From assembly GCA_012520235.1 (NCBI GenBank), contig JAAYOR010000014.1, forward strand, positions 1 through 39,320: a stretch of DNA of 39,320 bases, read 5' to 3'. The translations under genes and the position numbers were made by a program. This DNA is from Fretibacterium sp. (GTDB taxonomy: Bacteria > Synergistota > Synergistia > Synergistales > Aminobacteriaceae). Positions 292 through 9,171 of this stretch are shown here, piece by piece. Below the pieces are notes generated by a model. That model had not been told where the DNA came from. It saw only the letters and a list, made by a program, of their open reading frames with translations, and ran no database searches. Every line of letters begins with the position of its first letter. Position 1 is the stretch's first letter.

Positions 292-741
292 TCAATTTCC
301 CGTGCTGCCAAAGCCGCCCTCACCACGTTCCGTCTCGTCCAAAACCTCCACCTCGTGCCATTGTACGTGGGCCACCGGAGAGAAGACCATCTGAGCGATC
401 CTGTCTCCGGGCTCTATCCGGAAGGGCTCCGTTCCGATGTTCGCCAGGATGACTCCCACCTCGCCACGGTAGTCCGAGTCGATGGTCCCAGGGGCGTTGG
501 GGACCATGATCCCATGCTTCAGGGCCAAGCCGCTTCGGCCGCGTATCTGCGCCTCATAGCCCTCCGGGATGGAGAGCTTCAGGCCCGTTGGAACGAGAGC
601 CCTCCCGCCAGGGGGGATGGCGAGAGCAGCTGAAGCCCGGAGATCCATGCCAACCGAGCCGGAGGTGGCGTAAGAAGGAAGGGGCAGGTCCTCAGTCCTG
701 CCGCTGCGCGCCACTGTGACGGTGATGACCTCTCTCCTCAT
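292..741 (-). CDS. dut: dUTP diphosphatase (dUTPase)
   Basis: This trimeric cytosolic enzyme hydrolyses dUTP to dUMP and pyrophosphate, keeping uracil out of DNA and feeding thymidylate synthesis. All five family motifs are visible in order: GMDLRA (31-36), GRSGLA (68-73), [15 protein letters not shown] (85-99, with the substrate-site Asp), GDRIAQMVF (112-120) and the glycine-rich [11 protein letters not shown] at the C-terminus (138-148). At 149 aa it has the normal length. The ATG lies 6 bp after the pnp stop, with only a weak upstream Shine-Dalgarno, so it is probably translated by coupling from the pnp mRNA. Starting here keeps the conserved first beta strand (VITVTV). A terminator follows. 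Confidence 0.96.
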
Positions 742-747
742 GCCCGA

Positions 748-3054
748 CTAATAGTTCCTGCGCGGTCGACCGCCACCGGAACGAGAGTCACGGCCAGAAC
801 GTTCCCGGTCGCCTCCCCGTCCCGAACTCCCTCGGTTCGGACCACCTCGGTCGCCCCGCTCTACTCGGGCAGGTTCGCTTCCCGCCAGTCCTGCGATGAG
901 GTTTTCGCGCTCACGCTCATCGGGCAGGGCATCGGCAAGCCCAAGCTCGCGAATCCTCTCCTCATTAGAAATGATGCGCCGGCGGGTGAGGTTGACGCGC
1001 CCCATGTCATCGATCTCCTTGACCATGACCAGCACTCTGTCACCTGGCTTGAAGACGTCCTCCACCTTGGGGATGCGATACGTACTCACCTCACTGAGGT
1101 GCAAGAGCCCTTCCTTGCCAGGCAGGCACTCCACAAAAGCACCAAAGGTCATAAGGCGCGTCACGGTCCCCCAGTAAACCTCTCCGGCCTCCAGATCCTT
1201 TGTCAAAGCCCGGATGACATCTCGAGCCTCGTTCACCTGCTCCTGGGTCGGACCGGCGATGCTGACGTCGCCGGAGTCCTCAACATTGATCTTGACCCCG
1301 GTCTTCTGAGTGATACTGCGGATCATCTTGCCGCCCGGCCCGATGACATCACGGATCTTTTCCGTGTCGATGACCATCTTCAAGATTCGCGGAGCGTTGG
1401 GGGAAAGAGAGCTCGGTGCAGGAATGGCAGCCTCCATCTTATCTAGGATCTCCATACGGGCCTTTCGCGCCTGTCCCAAAGCAGCCTGAAGGATCTCGCG
1501 GGTGATGCCACCCGCCTTATTGTCCATCTGGAGAGCTGTGACACCCTTGCGGGTGCCGGCCACCTTAAAGTCCATGTCGCCATAGTGGTCTTCAAGGCCC
1601 TGGATATCCGTCAGGATGCTCACCTTGTCGTCCTCTTTGATGAGGCCCATCGCGACCCCGGCCACATGGCGCTTGATAGGCACGCCCGCGTTCATCATGG
1701 AGAGACTGCCGCCGCAGATGCTGGCCTGAGAGCTCGAACCGTTGGACTCCAGGATATCGGAGACGACGCGAATCACGTAGGGAAACTCGTCCTCGCTCGG
1801 TATGACGCAACGCAACGCGCGCTCCGCCAACGCACCATGCCCAATCTCACGCCGCCCTGGGCCGCGCATCGGGCGCACCTCTCCCACAGAGTAAGGCGGG
1901 AAGTTGTAGTGCAAAATGAAGCGTTTGGCAGGTTCGTCAAGCTTGATCCCATCAAGGACCTGATCGTCCTCGCCCACCATGCCGAGCGTCGTTACAGCCA
2001 GAGCCTGAGTCTCGCCACGCGTAAAGAGCGCGGAGCCGTGTACCTTGGGGAGGACCCCCGTCTCGCAGGTGATCTCTCGAAGCTCGCTCATCGCACGCCC
2101 GTCCACTCGGACCCCCTTGTCCACGATGAGAGACCTCATGATCTTCTTCACCCGATCGTCCACAAAGGCTGAGATGTAGTCCTCCCTGCCGGGCAGGGTC
2201 TCCGCAAAATGCTCTTTGGCCACCTTCTTGGCCAGGGCTATCTTTTCGTAGCGGGGTTTCTTCTCATGAATGCGGACTGCGTCCGCGATATCCCGATCCA
2301 GATTCGAGACAATCCAATCGTCAATCTCGGGCAGGCGCTCAGGAGAAGCGATTTCAACCTGAGGTTTGCCAACCTCGTCCCTCATCCTTCGGAAGAGGGA
2401 CAACAGCTTTCGGATCTCCGCCTGAGCCAGCTCCAACGCATCCACCAGGATCTCCTCAGAGACCTCGCGGGAACCGGACTCCACCATTGTCACCCCATCT
2501 TCGTGCGCTGCGACCAGAAGCTCCAGGTCGGAGAGGAGCATCTGCTCTTCCGTCGGATTGACGACCAGATTGCCATCCACCAAGCCGATGCGAACGGCTC
2601 CGACCGGTCCGCCCCAGGGAATTCCTGAGATGGAGAGCGCTGCAGAGGATGCATTGACGGCCAACACGCTGGGAGGATTTATCTGATCCACAGCCATGAC
2701 CGTGTTCACGACGTGTACTTCGTTGCGCATAGCGTCATCGAAAAGGGAACGGATGGAACGGTCCACAACACGAGCGCTCAGGATGGCCGAGTCCGAGGGG
2801 CGTCCCTCCCGCTTGATAAAACCACCCGGGATCTTTCCGGCAGAATAATAACGCTCCTCAAAATCGACCAGAAGTGGGAAAAAATCGATGCCTGTACGTG
2901 CGGTGTCCGTAACGCAGGCCGTGGCCAAAATAACTGTCTCGCCATGCGACGCCAACACCGCACCATTGGCCTGCTTTGCTACTTTCCCCGTTTTAAAAAC
3001 GAGTTCCCGTTCGCCAACCTGAACGGAATATACTTTTTCTTGTCCCTGTTCCAT
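748..3054 (-). CDS. pnp: polyribonucleotide nucleotidyltransferase (PNPase)
   Basis: PNPase is a trimeric 3'-5' phosphorolytic exoribonuclease of mRNA turnover and RNA quality control. The 768-aa protein shows two RNase PH-like domains joined by an alpha-helical linker. The active-site segment of the second, EDHYGDMDFKVAGTRKG, lies around residues 485-500 and keeps the metal-binding aspartates. A KH domain with IGPGGKMIRSI follows near 570, then an S1 domain (about 625-695). The last 60-70 residues are an Arg/Gly-rich tail that probably adds RNA contacts and is longer than in E. coli PNPase. The start is supported by GGAGG about 7 nt upstream. rpsO, the usual upstream partner, is not beside it; instead it has its own promoter and drives dut. 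Confidence 0.98.
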   Translation of the reverse strand: MEQGQEKVYSVQVGERELVFKTGKVAKQANGAVLASHGETVILATACVTDTARTGIDFFPLLVDFEERYYSAGKIPGGFIKREGRPSDSAILSARVVDRSIRSLFDDAMRNEVHVVNTVMAVDQINPPSVLAVNASSAALSISGIPWGGPVGAVRIGLVDGNLVVNPTEEQMLLSDLELLVAAHEDGVTMVESGSREVSEEILVDALELAQAEIRKLLSLFRRMRDEVGKPQVEIASPERLPEIDDWIVSNLDRDIADAVRIHEKKPRYEKIALAKKVAKEHFAETLPGREDYISAFVDDRVKKIMRSLIVDKGVRVDGRAMSELREITCETGVLPKVHGSALFTRGETQALAVTTLGMVGEDDQVLDGIKLDEPAKRFILHYNFPPYSVGEVRPMRGPGRREIGHGALAERALRCVIPSEDEFPYVIRVVSDILESNGSSSQASICGGSLSMMNAGVPIKRHVAGVAMGLIKEDDKVSILTDIQGLEDHYGDMDFKVAGTRKGVTALQMDNKAGGITREILQAALGQARKARMEILDKMEAAIPAPSSLSPNAPRILKMVIDTEKIRDVIGPGGKMIRSITQKTGVKINVEDSGDVSIAGPTQEQVNEARDVIRALTKDLEAGEVYWGTVTRLMTFGAFVECLPGKEGLLHLSEVSTYRIPKVEDVFKPGDRVLVMVKEIDDMGRVNLTRRRIISNEERIRELGLADALPDERERENLIAGLAGSEPARVERGDRGGPNRGSSGRGGDRERSGRDSRSGGGRPRRNY

Positions 3055-3103
3055 CTTTACGCCTCCTGATTCATCTTCTTCTAACCCTTCTCAAACGTTG
3101 TTT

Positions 3104-3132
3104 AGAATAACACAACACTTCCTTTAGTCCAA
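3104..3132 (-). promoter_or_regulatory. sigma70-type promoter of pnp
   Basis: On the minus strand TTGGAC (3132-3127) and TATTCT (3109-3104) are separated by exactly 17 bp, about 50 bp before the pnp ATG. The match to the housekeeping consensus is good. Seen in sequence; activity is inferred. Confidence 0.6.
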
Positions 3133-3209
3133 GCGGAAAATGCAGCGTTCATGGTGTATCATTAAGGGGTCGAACGAATTCAAACAAGGAGCGGAGACAC
3201 TGACCTAAG

Positions 3210-3800: not shown

Positions 3801-6092
3801 ATGAAGAAGAAACTTCGTTCTCAACCGTTGTTTGTTTCGCTTTTGCTTCTCTGCCTCCTGTTCTGCCTGACCCAGCCCAGCCTGCTGGAAGCTGCTGTTA
3901 AAACTCCTCACGGTAGCTATGATGTCGTCGTCGCCGGAGGCGGCATCGGAGGGATTGCGGCTGCCATCCAGGCTGCCCGGCTTGGGGTCTCAGTCCTTGT
4001 CGTTGAGCCCAGCGACTGGATCGGCGGCCAGGCCATCGCGGCAGGGGTCTCCACGATGGACGACCTCAGCCGTCTTCGCAGCGGTATTTACCTGGAGTTC
4101 ATCTCACGCCTCAAGGAGCGTTACGATCTCAGGGGCAAGTCGATGGGAACCTGCTACTGGGACCCCCGTACCGTCGCCTTTGAACCCTCTCTCGGACAGA
4201 AGGTCCTCTATGAGATGATCGAGGAGACGCGCTCTACCCCATCTCACAAGCTGGATCTCCTCCTGTCCACCTCCGTCACGCAGGTGAAGCTGGAGGGTAA
4301 GACCGTCACGGGCGTCACCCTGCACGGAGCCGAAGGCTCCCACAAAGTGGCCTGCCACGTCCTTATTGACGCCACGGAGTACGGCGACGTCCTTCCCCTT
4401 GCAAAAGCCGATTACCGCCTGGGGAACTCCGTCACCCCTTTCATCGACCCCGAAGCCATGATCCAGGACATCACCTGGGTCGCGATCCTCCAGCGCTACC
4501 CCAACGGGGTCCCGAACGCCCTGCGTCCCTCCCTTCCCCTGCCCGGTTATGAGCTCGCTCAGAGAAATTATGAGAGCTACGTGACGAAGGACGGGAAGGA
4601 CTTCAAGGGCGTCTACCCTGTGGAGCTCCCCGTCAATTTCGTCAGCCACAACGCCTATCGGGGCCTTCCGGACTCCTCCAGCTTTTGGACCTATGATGGG
4701 ACTCCTTCCAACTGGCCCTACATCACCAAAACCGGCGTGAACTGGGGCAACGACTACCCCGGAAAATACGGCTGGCAAGGGAACAGGGGGCTCCCTGCCG
4801 CCTACATTGAGGACCTCACCCTGCGGAAAGAGATTGAGCGGGAGGCCTTCCTCAAGACGCTCCACTTTATCTATTACATGCAAAACGATCTGGGAGAATC
4901 CTGGTCCGTCGCCGATGACGAATATCACCATCCCCAGATCCCCAGCGTTGCCGAAGGGCTGCCGGCCGACTGGCTGGAAATAGCGCGCCGGATGCCACCC
5001 ATCCCCTACGTGCGCGAATCCCGCCGCGTCGTGGGAGTCCACACGCTCACCTCGGCCGAGCTCCTGCGCAACTCCCTCAGCTATCGCGACGGCCAGACCA
5101 ATCATGAGTTCTCCGACGCCATCGCAATCGGAGGCTATATCCTCGACCTCCACGGAGCGGACACCGACGCAGATATGGAGTGGGAGCTCGGCGAAAGGGC
5201 CGCCTCGTCCCAGCTGAACCGCCCTCGAGGTCCTTTCCAAGTCCCGCTGCGCATCCTCCTCCCTAAGGACAAGGAGGGCCTTTTGGCCGCGGAGAAAAAT
5301 CTCTCGATGTCCCGGCTGACCGCCGGAGCTCTGCGGCTTCAGCCCATCTGCATGATGGTAGGGCAAGCGGCCGGAGCTCTCGCAGCCCTCTCGGTCCAGA
5401 ACGGGCTTCCCCTTCGAGACGTCCCGCCGGTTCGGGTCCATAGCGTCCTCCTTGACGCCGGGGTGGTGCTGTCGCTTTGCAAGTATTCCGACGTCCCCCC
5501 TGAGCACCCTTACTACAAGTCCGTGCAGCTCGTCAATCTGTACTCCTTACTCGACCCTCTAGAGCCCCCTCACGCCCCTTCCTACAACATCAGCGACTTG
5601 GACGACCCGGTCCTGGCCATGGCCATCATCAAAGGACACGACAAAGGGGTGTTCGGCGTAGACGAGATGATCACTCAGACGGAGATGGTGCAAATGATGG
5701 AGCGTGCCCGCGAGGCGTCCCGCACGACTTTGGGGCAGGTCCCCCCTATTGGGTCCAAACCGGACCGCTTCATCAGCCGCGGTGTGTTTGCCAAAGCGCT
5801 CTGCCAGACCTTCGACTTTGATGCGCCGGAAGAGGCCGCACCCTCCAAGGCGAAAAAAGGCAGAGGAAAGAGAGAGAAAGCCCCCCAACCGCGCCCGAGG
5901 AAAAGCTCCTTCTTCACTCCTTCGGAACACCCCTCCGCCCCTGCCGTGGAGCTGCTCTCCGCCAAAGGTATCCTTGACCTCTACAAGACGGAACGGGCGT
6001 TTCGCTACGGCCACCCCGTCACGCGCGGAGAGGCCGCAGAGATGCTGATGAAGGCGATGGCAGCAGCGCAGCTGCCTGAAAAAGCAAAATAA
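3801..6092 (+). CDS. exported FAD-dependent oxidoreductase with SLH-like C-terminus
   Basis: The 763-aa protein begins with a Sec-type signal peptide (basic MKKKLR, hydrophobic 9-24, probable cleavage after LLEA). A Rossmann FAD-binding fold follows, with VVVAGGGIGGIAAA (GxGxxG at 46-51), the ribose-binding acidic residue at about 69 and IGGQAIAAG near 74-82. This is typical of the FAD_oxidored (PF12831) group, which extends to about residue 540. From about 560 on there are SLH-like repeats: YSDVPPEHPYYKSV, a middle copy, and a last one ending VTRGEAAEMLMKAM (about 740-753), with a basic linker near 680-700. SLH repeats anchor proteins to the cell wall or envelope, so I infer a surface- or periplasm-bound flavoenzyme. 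The substrate is unknown. No twin-arginine motif is visible. AAGGAGG lies 17 nt before the ATG, an unusually long spacing, but an in-frame stop blocks an earlier start. Confidence 0.87.
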   Translation: MKKKLRSQPLFVSLLLLCLLFCLTQPSLLEAAVKTPHGSYDVVVAGGGIGGIAAAIQAARLGVSVLVVEPSDWIGGQAIAAGVSTMDDLSRLRSGIYLEFISRLKERYDLRGKSMGTCYWDPRTVAFEPSLGQKVLYEMIEETRSTPSHKLDLLLSTSVTQVKLEGKTVTGVTLHGAEGSHKVACHVLIDATEYGDVLPLAKADYRLGNSVTPFIDPEAMIQDITWVAILQRYPNGVPNALRPSLPLPGYELAQRNYESYVTKDGKDFKGVYPVELPVNFVSHNAYRGLPDSSSFWTYDGTPSNWPYITKTGVNWGNDYPGKYGWQGNRGLPAAYIEDLTLRKEIEREAFLKTLHFIYYMQNDLGESWSVADDEYHHPQIPSVAEGLPADWLEIARRMPPIPYVRESRRVVGVHTLTSAELLRNSLSYRDGQTNHEFSDAIAIGGYILDLHGADTDADMEWELGERAASSQLNRPRGPFQVPLRILLPKDKEGLLAAEKNLSMSRLTAGALRLQPICMMVGQAAGALAALSVQNGLPLRDVPPVRVHSVLLDAGVVLSLCKYSDVPPEHPYYKSVQLVNLYSLLDPLEPPHAPSYNISDLDDPVLAMAIIKGHDKGVFGVDEMITQTEMVQMMERAREASRTTLGQVPPIGSKPDRFISRGVFAKALCQTFDFDAPEEAAPSKAKKGRGKREKAPQPRPRKSSFFTPSEHPSAPAVELLSAKGILDLYKTERAFRYGHPVTRGEAAEMLMKAMAAAQLPEKAK

Positions 6093-6228: not shown

Positions 6229-9171
6229 TCACATGGAGTCGTTCCCGGTCTCCTCAAAGATCAGGCGCAGCATCTCCGAGGCGTCAAAAGCCCCGCCTGT
6301 CTCGTCCAGTAGGCCTTCGGCCAGTGCCCGCTTGTGGGCGTGCAGATCCACTATCTTCTCCTCCACCGTATCCTTGGCCACGATCCGGTAGACCGTCACG
6401 GGCCGGGTCTGTCCAATCCGGTGCGACCGGTCGCTGGCCTGGTCCTCCACGGCAGGGTTCCACCACGGGTCCATGTGGATGACAAAATCCGCACCCGTCA
6501 GATTCAACCCCGTCCCCCCAGCCCTCAGACTGATCAAAAAGCAATCCCCCTCCCCACCCTGAAAGGCATCCACACGCCTCTGGCGCTCCCGGACAGGAGT
6601 GGAGCCGTCCAGGTATTGATAGGGGATCTTTTCCTCATCCAGCCAGGCCCGGAGCAGGGAAAGATGGTCCACAAACTGGCTGAATACCAGAGCCCTGTGT
6701 CCGTTCTCACGCAATTCCGTCAGGATGTCCTGAAAAGCCTCCATCTTGGCTGATGGGGCGGCACATTCCGGGGAAAACAATGAGGTGGAGCAGCAGGCGC
6801 GGCGCAGCTTCATCAGGGCAGCAAAGATGTGCATCCGATCGTCTTCCCCCACCTCCTGCAGCTGTTCGACCACAGAGCGGCGCAGTGCTTCATAAAAGGC
6901 CCTCTCCCGCTCCTTCAGCGGGACCCTCAGGGTGACCTCGGTCTTTGGAGGCAGCTCCTCCAGAACCTGCGTCTTGGTCCGGCGAAGGATGAAGGGCTGA
7001 ATCAGTCTTTTCAAGAGCTGCCTCGCCGCCTCGTTCTTATCGCGCTCAATGGGAGTGATGAAACGCCGCGAAAAACTTTCAAACGAGCCCAGATAATGAG
7101 GGTTCAGGAAGCGGAAGAGGTTCCAGAGCTCACTCAGCCGGTTTTCTATCGGAGTGCCCGTCGTCGCAACCTTGAAGTTACCCTTCAACTTCATGGCCGC
7201 GGCGGACCGCTTGGTTCCCATGTTCTTGATGGCCTGAGCCTCGTCCAGGACGATGGTGTGCCAGGGGATAGCGCTCAAGCGCCGGCTCTCGCTTTGGAGG
7301 AGCCCGTAGCTGACGAGGACCAGATCTCTGACTCCCAAGCCGCTCAGAGCCTCCTCCCGATCCCCGGAGGCCAGCTCCCGCACCTTAAGGGATGGGACGA
7401 AACGCGCGGCCTCGCGGGCCCAGTTCTGGCACACGGAAGTCGGGGCCACGACCAGCGAAGGGCCGGACGAACGGGCTGCCAGCAAAGCCAGGGCCTGCAC
7501 TGTTTTGCCCAACCCCATGTCATCAGCCAGGCACGCGCCGCCGCCCCAATGAGCTAGGCGGCACAGCCATCGGTAGCCCTCCATCTGGTAATCGCGCAGT
7601 TCTCCGCGAAAGCCGGGCGGCAGCTCCGGGCTGAGAGAGGCAGCCTCTGCGACGAGATGCGCCTTCTCCCGCCAGCCTGAACTCGACGACTCCGCGCCCA
7701 CATCCTCCAAGAGCCCGACTGCGGCAGGAGCGACGCGCAGCTCTTCCCCTTTGGGCTCCCCGAGCCCCCTTAAGACCTCCAGCTGCCTTTTCAGAGCTTT
7801 CGTCAGGGCCAGGAAGGAGCCGTCCTGCAGGAAGATAAAGCGCCCATATCCATAATCCAGGCCTTCCAGCAGGCTTTTCATGTCAAGGACAAGTTTTTCG
7901 TTCACCTTGAGAGATCCGGACACGGCAAACCAGTCACGGTCGTCGCGCACCGAAAGGGAAAGAGAGGGCATGGACGAAAAGTCGGGCGACAGGACAGAGA
8001 ACGGCTCTCCCCGCACCCACTCCACCCTCACGGTCTCGCCCAACGCCTGAAGCTGCACAAGGAATTCAAGCGCTAAAGCAGGGTCTGGCAAGCTCCATCG
8101 CTCAGGGGCCAGCTGTTCTCCTTCGGAGAGAGCGGGACAGGCAGACTGAAGGTCTGAAAAAGCGTCCAACTCTGCCTCCAGGGAGCGGACCGTCTGGACA
8201 CGCCGTCCGTTCAGGATCCCAAAGAGATTCACCCCTCCCCGGCCGGGCCTGCAGACAGTGCTCCCTTTTCCGAGAGGACGGACCTCCACCTCCACTTCCA
8301 GCCCCTCTTCCACGAGGTAAAGGCGAACGTAAATGCCCGGGTCCGCCAGCACCATCTCAAGGGCGGAGTCAATACCGGCCAAGTCAGAATGGATGGTGAC
8401 GAAAGAGGAAAGGATCCCCAACGTCTTCAACAGTTTCTCCCGGGCGGAGAAAGGCACTTTGAGGCCCGAGTCGCCCAGGATGCGGGCCATGCGCAGGTGC
8501 CGCTCCTCAAAATGCGTCAGCTTCAAGACGTTCTCAGGGTCCTCTCGAAGGAGGAGTTGAGGGTGCGTCTCCCCATAGGGAACGTTTGTCAGATACAAGA
8601 GCCACTCACTGCGCCCGGAGGAGACCACCAGCCTGGGCTCATCCTCAACCAGATCGACCCTCCTTCCATCGTCCATGCGAAAAAGGAAAGGGTGCCCCAC
8701 AAGCGCCAAGAGGGCCTGAGATACGTCCAGGGAGTACTCCATCCCATAATATCCCCGCACAGCCCTCACCGCAGTTGCGGCACGAAGGTCCTGTTCCGTC
8801 ATGCATCCGACAGTCTGAGGTTCATGACGAAGACGACGGAGGGCCACCCGACGCCCCTTGCTCCATCCTTGTCTCTGCAAGGTCTGTTCCAAGGGGATCA
8901 GTGTGACGTCGTAGACCTGTCTCTCATAGTTAGTCCATTCCAGGCCCCAGGCAAAGCGCTTGCCCTCCAACCGTTTGGCCCCTATGCCGGAGAGCTTCTC
9001 AAGGGACTGCTCCCAATCCCCCAAAAAAACCTCGTCCTCCGGGAACTCGGAGAACCCCTCATAGACGAGCTCCCCATCCCCGACCGGCTCATCGTCATCA
9101 AAACCCTCCATAACGCCTTCTTCCGTCTCAAGGCGCTCCCGTTCCGCTTTTCCGCTTCGTTCAAAATTCAT
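6229..9171 (-). CDS. SNF2-family DNA translocase/helicase-like ATPase
   Basis: The 980-aa protein belongs to the bacterial SNF2 (Swi2/Snf2) ATPases, which translocate along duplex DNA and remodel bound proteins. The C-terminal 460 residues hold the motor: motif I DDMGLGKT (550-557), motif II DEAQ (643-646), motif III TTGTPIENRLSELWNL (about 670-686), then the second RecA lobe with VFSQFVDHLSLL, GGTGLNLTGAD and DQASDRSHRIGQ (arginine fingers). The segment before it, with DWFAVSGSLKVNEK near 413-426, matches the bacterial SNF2-associated domain. The acidic N-terminus is not recognised, and I see no SWIM-type zinc finger cysteines. GGAGG sits 6 nt before the ATG. It is divergent from a uracil-DNA glycosylase, which hints at DNA repair, but bacterial members are mostly uncharacterised. 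Confidence 0.93.
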   Translation of the reverse strand: MNFERSGKAERERLETEEGVMEGFDDDEPVGDGELVYEGFSEFPEDEVFLGDWEQSLEKLSGIGAKRLEGKRFAWGLEWTNYERQVYDVTLIPLEQTLQRQGWSKGRRVALRRLRHEPQTVGCMTEQDLRAATAVRAVRGYYGMEYSLDVSQALLALVGHPFLFRMDDGRRVDLVEDEPRLVVSSGRSEWLLYLTNVPYGETHPQLLLREDPENVLKLTHFEERHLRMARILGDSGLKVPFSAREKLLKTLGILSSFVTIHSDLAGIDSALEMVLADPGIYVRLYLVEEGLEVEVEVRPLGKGSTVCRPGRGGVNLFGILNGRRVQTVRSLEAELDAFSDLQSACPALSEGEQLAPERWSLPDPALALEFLVQLQALGETVRVEWVRGEPFSVLSPDFSSMPSLSLSVRDDRDWFAVSGSLKVNEKLVLDMKSLLEGLDYGYGRFIFLQDGSFLALTKALKRQLEVLRGLGEPKGEELRVAPAAVGLLEDVGAESSSSGWREKAHLVAEAASLSPELPPGFRGELRDYQMEGYRWLCRLAHWGGGACLADDMGLGKTVQALALLAARSSGPSLVVAPTSVCQNWAREAARFVPSLKVRELASGDREEALSGLGVRDLVLVSYGLLQSESRRLSAIPWHTIVLDEAQAIKNMGTKRSAAAMKLKGNFKVATTGTPIENRLSELWNLFRFLNPHYLGSFESFSRRFITPIERDKNEAARQLLKRLIQPFILRRTKTQVLEELPPKTEVTLRVPLKERERAFYEALRRSVVEQLQEVGEDDRMHIFAALMKLRRACCSTSLFSPECAAPSAKMEAFQDILTELRENGHRALVFSQFVDHLSLLRAWLDEEKIPYQYLDGSTPVRERQRRVDAFQGGEGDCFLISLRAGGTGLNLTGADFVIHMDPWWNPAVEDQASDRSHRIGQTRPVTVYRIVAKDTVEEKIVDLHAHKRALAEGLLDETGGAFDASEMLRLIFEETGNDSM

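Follow-up and report, generated by a model that had tools for sequence, protein, structure and literature searches.

Does an S-layer homology (SLH) domain, a module by which proteins are usually fixed to the cell wall, still serve as an anchor when it forms the tail of an exported flavoenzyme? The question is raised by one gene in a 39,320-nucleotide stretch of Fretibacterium sp. (Synergistota) DNA, referred to below as the window (GenBank assembly GCA_012520235.1, contig JAAYOR010000014.1; our contig C53, from a genome of 2.33 Mb in 196 contigs, 98.9% complete). Its product, P0001, had been presented in a preliminary description, made from the sequence alone, as a flavin adenine dinucleotide (FAD) oxidoreductase tethered to the cell surface by SLH-like repeats; the coordinates, strand and length of the frame, which starts with ATG, were confirmed (Table 1). 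Our analyses indicate that the C-terminus almost certainly has the SLH fold and that the domain is a true but degenerate triplet. For the chain as a whole we tentatively propose, at somewhat less than even probability, a periplasmic, Sec-exported FAD enzyme whose degenerate SLH module is packed on its core.

Fold of the C-terminal domain

In a Pfam search with full-length P0001, a single SLH unit passed the cut-off (PF00395, residues 709–746; 23.3 bits against 20.8, E 6.4e-5), and the C-terminus alone gave 30.5 bits (E 3.5e-7). One could read such a tail as an ordinary extension of the FAD_oxidored family with a chance similarity to the motif, given that the one unit barely reaches the cut-off in the full-length search and that a PF00395 search of the same genome listed a porin alone and missed the unit of the window gene, which makes the genome's SLH counts lower bounds. 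Several profiles and the fold, however, agree on SLH. When the C-termini of 31 long-form relatives were aligned (A2) and their profile was run against 177,635 PDB sequences, 12 matches were obtained at E<=10, and the top 11 were S-layer or SLH-domain proteins, including Sap (6bt4, 2.9e-6; 3pyw, 3.0e-6), the SLH domain of OmpM (8bz2, 4.4e-5), SbsB and SpaA; the twelfth was a weak, non-SLH match (E 0.72). SLH proteins likewise came first with profiles of 13 distant sequences (A4; SbsB, 7.2e-7), of 21 short forms (A5; SbsB, 5.6e-4) and of nine sequences (A6; Sap, 4.6e-6). Searched one by one, 30 of the 31 long-form C-termini, 9 of the 21 short ones and seven of the nine in A6 matched the Pfam SLH family at E<=0.1.

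The structural comparisons, one of the follow-ups proposed earlier, lead to the same place. Folded alone, the C-terminus was predicted with a local distance difference test score (pLDDT) of 82.9 and a template modelling score (pTM) of 0.78, and the top 13 Foldseek rows for this model were SLH chains, the best E being a modest 1.9e-2 (TM 0.53/0.62). With VIA-align, the model matched the SLH triplet of Sap (3pyw) at Z 15.6 over 150 residues (root-mean-square deviation 3.4; model range 7–206 of 211) and the other Sap and SpaA SLH entries, 6bt4 and 6cwc among them, at Z 11.8 to 14.6, sharing their fold over the whole domain; the next rows were an S-layer undecaheme cytochrome (6qvm, Z 7.7) and unrelated helical proteins, none of them above Z 3.4. 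Helical bundles can reach a high Z by chance, which is unlikely here because the sequence profiles agree. The predicted model contains the three units of an SLH fold, though the second lacks its first helix.

A relative without the region completes the case. The protein WP_221067076 of a Methylomagnum plasmid (558 residues, with a leader that by eye looks secreted) is 43% identical to P0001 over residues 60–564, consists of FAD_oxidored alone and stops where the SLH part would start; relatives without the SLH domain generally stop at about residue 555–564. Because the Methylomagnum protein ends there, the SLH domain is separable and not part of the FAD_oxidored fold: P0001 resembles the family in a whole-domain match, while family relatives may end before the SLH part. 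On the PDB profiles, Foldseek, VIA-align and the Methylomagnum protein we reject the chance similarity, which we hold to be extremely improbable. The claim of SLH repeats at the C-terminus is thereby upheld, and the outcome named in advance as speaking against it, no SLH match and an ordinary FAD_oxidored fold, did not materialize.

A degenerate triplet and the wall-sugar signature

Of the three units, the first is complete and carries an insert, the second is reduced to one helix and the third is complete. Unit 1 consists of a head, YSDVPPEHPYYKSVQLVNLY, the insert at 586–612 and then FGVDEMITQTEMVQMMERA, and unit 2 is the second helix only, ISRGVFAKALCQTF. The two strings quoted earlier as SLH repeats do belong to SLH units, although each is a half: unit 1 has YSDVPPEHPYYKSV as its first half, unit 3 has VTRGEAAEMLMKAM as its last, and the one-helix unit 2 lies between them. 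The linker is in part private to P0001, residues 695–699 being absent in 30 of the 31 long forms. Compared with Sap and SpaA, P0001 thus differs in its one-helix unit 2, in the unit-1 insert of 27 residues, in the lack of a sugar-contacting Trp and in the position of the triplet, C-terminal to an enzyme.

The last-mentioned residue bears most directly on function. In the SLH complexes of SpaA and OmpM, according to PMC10628300, a Trp and a Gly hold the wall sugar and the Arg of a TRAE motif contacts its pyruvate. This signature was not found in P0001: the corresponding stretches are HPYY in unit 1 and HPSA in unit 3, a Gly is present at 612 and the Arg at 660 and 742 only, Trp is absent from all three units, and so the earlier suggestion of envelope anchoring keeps its SLH fold and loses the residue that would touch the sugar. 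The absence is general. Among the 52 rows of our main alignment (A1: P0001 and 51 of 59 named loci, 31 long and 21 short forms; left out were L025, L034, L051, L056 and L066, cut short, L052, frameshifted, L037, whose alignment values equal those of L036, and L067), none has a Trp at 566–576 in unit 1, and 30 of the 31 long forms have none at 705–716 in unit 3. The OmpM-like porin of the same genome has HWAY, GVLSGYPDG and TRYE. Distant relatives do show a unit-1 Trp in 21 of 22 rows (A3, 22 of 28 distant loci; left out were L108, L125 and L127, cut short, and L126, L128 and L129, divergent and from one genome), but by eye it stands two residues past the Trp of the porin, at the position of its Tyr, and for this reason was not counted as the signature residue. 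In the six distant loci outside A3, also judged by eye, a unit-1 Trp is present in L108 and L126 and absent in L125, L128 and L129, and L127 stops short.

The conservation of the domain is uneven. Across the 31 long forms, mean pairwise identity is 69.6% at residues 555–585 and 69.1% in the insert, close to the 69.7% of the FAD core (40–550), and falls to 49.7% in helix 2 of unit 1, 51.6% in the helix of unit 2 and 47.5% in unit 3. The model of all 763 residues has a pTM of 0.90, which, as far as a prediction goes, we take to mean that the C-terminal domain has a fixed position. Since the signature Trp is lost, residues 555–612 are conserved like the core and the pTM is high, we slightly favour a mainly structural role for the SLH part over anchoring, giving it about an even chance.

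A true anchor is the serious competitor and we put its probability only a little lower, short of even: the triplet would bind peptidoglycan or another wall polymer from the periplasm through units 2 and 3 and so hold the flavoenzyme at the wall. The fold itself speaks for it, as do the invariant R660 and the conserved Arg or Lys at 742, the passing Pfam score of unit 3, the OmpM-like porin, which implies a wall that SLH domains bind (according to PMC9388160 and PMC10628300), and the redox precedent of the Carboxydothermus ferrireducens cytochrome (6qvm). Against this, no unit of P0001 combines Trp, Gly and Arg, the part closest to the core is conserved like the core, and what the short paralogues retain, unit 1 plus a single TRGE helix, is not enough for a three-unit anchor within one chain.

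A structural role has difficulties of its own, which we gather here. At the TRAE-type positions, all 52 rows have R660 and all 31 long forms an Arg or Lys at 742, and a Gly stands at 612 in all but one of the long forms; because these residues persist some ligand binding may remain; unit 3, moreover, still resembles SLH closely enough to pass Pfam. The OmpM of Negativicutes, according to PMC10628300, deviates from the usual signature and in full length binds polyaminated peptidoglycan nonetheless. Like identities in two regions are no proof that the regions touch; the pTM is the single measure from which docking of the module on the core is drawn, and the full and C-terminal models were built from overlapping family alignments.

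Inheritance across Synergistota

The fusion, for which homologues in Synergistota were proposed as a check, was found phylum-wide. All 59 named relatives are Synergistota, and 168 of 185 Synergistota genomes match at E<=1e-3, although the weakest include many that reflect flavoproteins in general; many genomes hold several matches to P0001, numbers that are to be read as at least, with up to five scored per genome. In a tree of 79 FAD cores, the 31 long forms, which possess unit 3, make up one group (96/82), 19 short forms adjoin it, and the short forms L049 and L053 fall just outside. Because the short forms retain unit 1 and a helix, and distant Synergistota homologues likewise keep unit 1 and terminal helices, the SLH part seems to have been inherited together with the enzyme across the phylum and not to be a recent fusion in this genome. 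One family member (L052, Fretibacterium fastidiosum) has a gene frameshifted near the SLH part, the match running to 8356 and the frame ending at 7689, either a sequencing error or a pseudogene.

Outside the phylum, the C-terminus alone found no match among plasmids, and an uncultivated phage contig (IMGVR_UViG_3300036768_000456) encodes a 723-residue protein that passes from FAD_oxidored to SLH at the same junction (SLH 59.8 bits). With midpoint rooting, the Methylomagnum and phage proteins sit on long branches between two Synergistota groups; the fusion either is old or has moved, and we draw no rooting from the tree. The third SLH-like repeat of the phage protein reads YWAY, and genes for a DNA polymerase, a ribonucleotide reductase and a dUTPase as well as tail genes surround it. 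Separately, genes annotated as FAD dependent oxidoreductase in the Rhizobium phages MN988500 (15189–15872) and MN988554 (24235–24678) match the middle of P0001 at 28–29% identity.

No description of FAD_oxidored with S-layer homology, nor of an exported SLH FAD-dependent oxidoreductase, was found in the literature searched. PF12831 is said to appear in a flavoproteome study of Brucella. What we have is a phylum-wide family of exported flavoenzymes with a degenerate SLH module, a variant of known parts that is undescribed in that literature.

Export and the FAD domain

The leader, MKKKLRSQPLFVSLLLLCLLFCLTQPSLLEAA, includes 15 consecutive residues with a mean hydropathy of 2.9 and lacks a twin-arginine (Tat) motif; a loose pattern for the motif matches 3 of 56 leaders. 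Going by its sequence, P0001 is very probably exported by a Sec-type route and not by Tat, in agreement with what had been noticed before. The complete GxGxxG motif reported earlier is GGGIGG, inside a PF12831 match of 287.9 bits (cut-off 27) that covers positions 1–413 of the 416 in the profile; the family matches all 52 rows of A1. Y403, V404, R405, E406, R408 and R409 are invariant in those rows, and since the family-typical residues (YVRESRR at 403, DLHG at 449, GQAAG at 521) are intact in P0001 and common to the Methylomagnum relative, P0001 is likely an active FAD enzyme.

What reaction it would catalyse cannot be taken from the structure, as the best matches of the full model, at Z of about 16, are tied across many Rossmann flavoenzymes: Thi4, flavocytochrome c3, urocanate reductase, GidA and thioredoxin reductases. 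A specific catalytic relative was rejected for this reason and no function drawn. The FAD core fills the match list of the full model, from which SLH chains are absent, and NCBIfam gave matches to the Rossmann region only, far under cut-off. We know of no substrate for this branch of FAD_oxidored.

Location, flavin supply and electron transfer

The genome encodes (L098) what by eye is an OmpM-like porin of SLH domain, coiled coil and barrel, a tether type that PMC9388160 calls widespread in diderm Terrabacteria, Synergistetes included; according to PMC9388160 and PMC10628300, it is from the periplasm that the SLH domains of OmpM and SlpA bind peptidoglycan or wall polymer. Because of this porin the cell would be diderm, and P0001, Sec-exported and with no barrel or lipobox seen by eye, would most simply be periplasmic; we consider such a location, as opposed to surface exposure, probable. 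Nor does an SLH domain here imply surface exposure, because that of OmpM faces the wall from the periplasm, and the surface tether proposed earlier therefore gives way to a periplasmic place. P0001 resembles OmpM and SlpA in its SLH domain and in its expected position on the periplasmic side of a diderm envelope, but is not a tether of their type: it has neither the coiled coil nor the outer-membrane barrel, and bears its degenerate triplet in one chain, where in theirs each chain of a trimer supplies one unit.

The loading of FAD after Sec export had been posed as a puzzle. It is hardly a new one, as precedents exist: according to PMC9973259, Sec substrates fold outside and need an exported cofactor, Listeria exports FAD through an energy-coupling factor (ECF) transporter for ApbE-type flavinylation, and ApbE uses FAD outside the cytosol. 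Our genome encodes an ApbE (E 1.5e-82) and two FMN_bind proteins, which show no more than that flavin chemistry outside the cytosol is probably present. Given the Sec-cofactor precedents and this ApbE, loading of FAD after export is plausible for P0001 and would not be special to it. A 400-residue FMN_bind protein with several hydrophobic stretches (L101, contig C34 of this genome, G000; 700–1902, minus strand) adjoins a 346-residue protein (2156–3196, minus strand), and the pair is possibly a separate extracytosolic flavin system.

The suggestion of a part in extracytosolic electron transfer fared less well. In its strongest form, P0001 would be a surface-exposed terminal reductase for extracellular electron transfer, for which one could cite the export of a flavoenzyme in a lineage of known anaerobes, the ApbE and FMN_bind proteins, and the presence of flavocytochrome c3 and urocanate reductase among the tied core matches. 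Motif and Pfam scans, however, found no CxxCH, FMN_bind or iron-sulphur domain on the chain; the neighbouring genes, identified by eye, are pnp, dut, one for a small secreted-looking protein and one for a SNF2-type helicase, with no cytochrome, so that neither the chain nor a neighbour offers heme, flavin mononucleotide (FMN) or another relay; the structural ties extend to Thi4, GidA and thioredoxin reductases; and the envelope is that of a diderm. We regard this role as very unlikely. The precedents differ from P0001 in the same respect. OmhA of C. ferrireducens, the S-layer undecaheme cytochrome met above, is a redox protein with an SLH-like module, but also a multiheme surface Fe(III) reductase, whereas P0001 carries one FAD domain and lacks heme motifs. 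Like P0001, flavocytochrome c3 and urocanate reductase are exported FAD enzymes, theirs being periplasmic, but the alignment to them covers no more than about 220 residues, other Rossmann flavoenzymes do equally well, and P0001 lacks a heme domain.

Gene neighbourhood

The small secreted-looking protein encoded just upstream of the FAD-SLH gene has homologues at L009, L010, L011, L014, L015, L033, L052, L133 and L136 and is thus a conserved neighbour in some relatives. We leave it unnamed because its Pfam matches (DUF3862, BamE, DUF7738) are all under cut-off and its PDB matches are designed proteins; comparison with the protein encoded ahead of the Methylomagnum gene showed no relationship (E 1.7).

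A different arrangement recurs among the relatives. Counting loci with at least 1 kb of upstream sequence, which left out 9 of the 59, 11 of 28 long-form loci (L022, L023, L024, L028, L029, L030, L031, L048, L052, L056 and L064) and none of 22 short-form loci have an upstream ribD that is read from the other strand and is followed, where the contig allows, by ribE and often ribH; the gene names reflect similarity to L024 proteins recognised by eye as RibD, RibE and RibH. The divergent riboflavin operon is also found in genome G034 (L133), and there and in F. fastidiosum (L052) the small-protein homologue sits between the rib genes and the FAD-SLH gene. In the window, L009, L013, L014, L015 and L062, the upstream genes are instead pnp and dut, and the ribD homologue of the window genome lies on contig C15. 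As the loci are related, the arrangement is a conserved gene order in a few genera and not a set of independent events. Rfam searches of the window and 16 loci gave tRNAs only, and no FMN riboswitch near the gene or the riboflavin operons.

A 467-codon open frame runs antisense to the FAD domain (window 4104–5507, minus strand) and most likely results from GC-rich codon use.

Table 1. Features of the FAD-SLH gene and related loci; positions refer to the window unless a locus is named.
Feature	Residues	Position	Strand	Basis
Coding sequence, exported FAD_oxidored-SLH protein, 763 aa		3801–6092	+	Open reading frame, translation, Pfam
Sec-type leader	about 1–32	3801–3896	+	Hydrophobic stretch; helix 8–23, low pLDDT 25–32 in model
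FAD_oxidored domain (PF12831)	41–547	3921–5441	+	Pfam E 2.3e-85; genome search, same range
GxGxxG dinucleotide-binding motif, GGGIGG	46–51	3936–3953	+	Sequence
Conserved YVRESRR motif	403–409	5007–5027	+	Alignment A1; also in Methylomagnum relative
SLH-fold C-terminal domain	about 560–756	5478–6068	+	Profile search, C-terminal model, structure matches
SLH unit 1, 27-residue insert at 586–612	562–640	5484–5720	+	Alignments, PDB profile, model
SLH unit 2, second helix only	656–671	5766–5813	+	Alignments, model; R660 invariant 52/52
Linker, Lys/Arg/Pro-rich	672–703	5814–5909	+	Alignments; low pLDDT around 678–690
SLH unit 3, complete	704–756	5910–6068	+	Only unit found by Pfam (709–746)
Small secreted-looking protein, 165 aa		3210–3707	+	93 bp upstream of FAD-SLH gene, same strand
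Phage FAD_oxidored-SLH gene		L130:2887–5058 / L138:10001–12172		Secreted-looking product, 36% identical to P0001

Discussion

Taken together, the observations would fit the following course. P0001 would be a FAD-dependent oxidoreductase of the periplasm, exported by Sec in unfolded form and supplied with its FAD outside; its SLH module would descend from a wall anchor, unit 1 of the module would now lie packed against the enzyme core and cap it structurally, and wall binding would have been weakened or lost in this clade. A bolder version, which we consider rather unlikely, is that a periplasmic flavoenzyme family has made a wall anchor into a part of the enzyme throughout the phylum and that, in several Synergistaceae genera, its gene shares a control region with the riboflavin operon. 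Were it true, an SLH domain would have been recruited for catalysis or assembly instead of anchoring, and there would be a dedicated line of flavin supply from the cytoplasm to the periplasm.

Synergistota are anaerobes of the gut, the rumen and the mouth whose periplasmic chemistry is barely described, and the P0001 family, with its several matches in many genomes, may be a main family of exported redox enzymes in the phylum. It offers a clear case in which to ask whether wall binding can be lost from SLH domains that persist as structural modules, and the divergent riboflavin operon ties flavin synthesis to exported flavoenzymes in a way that can be tested.

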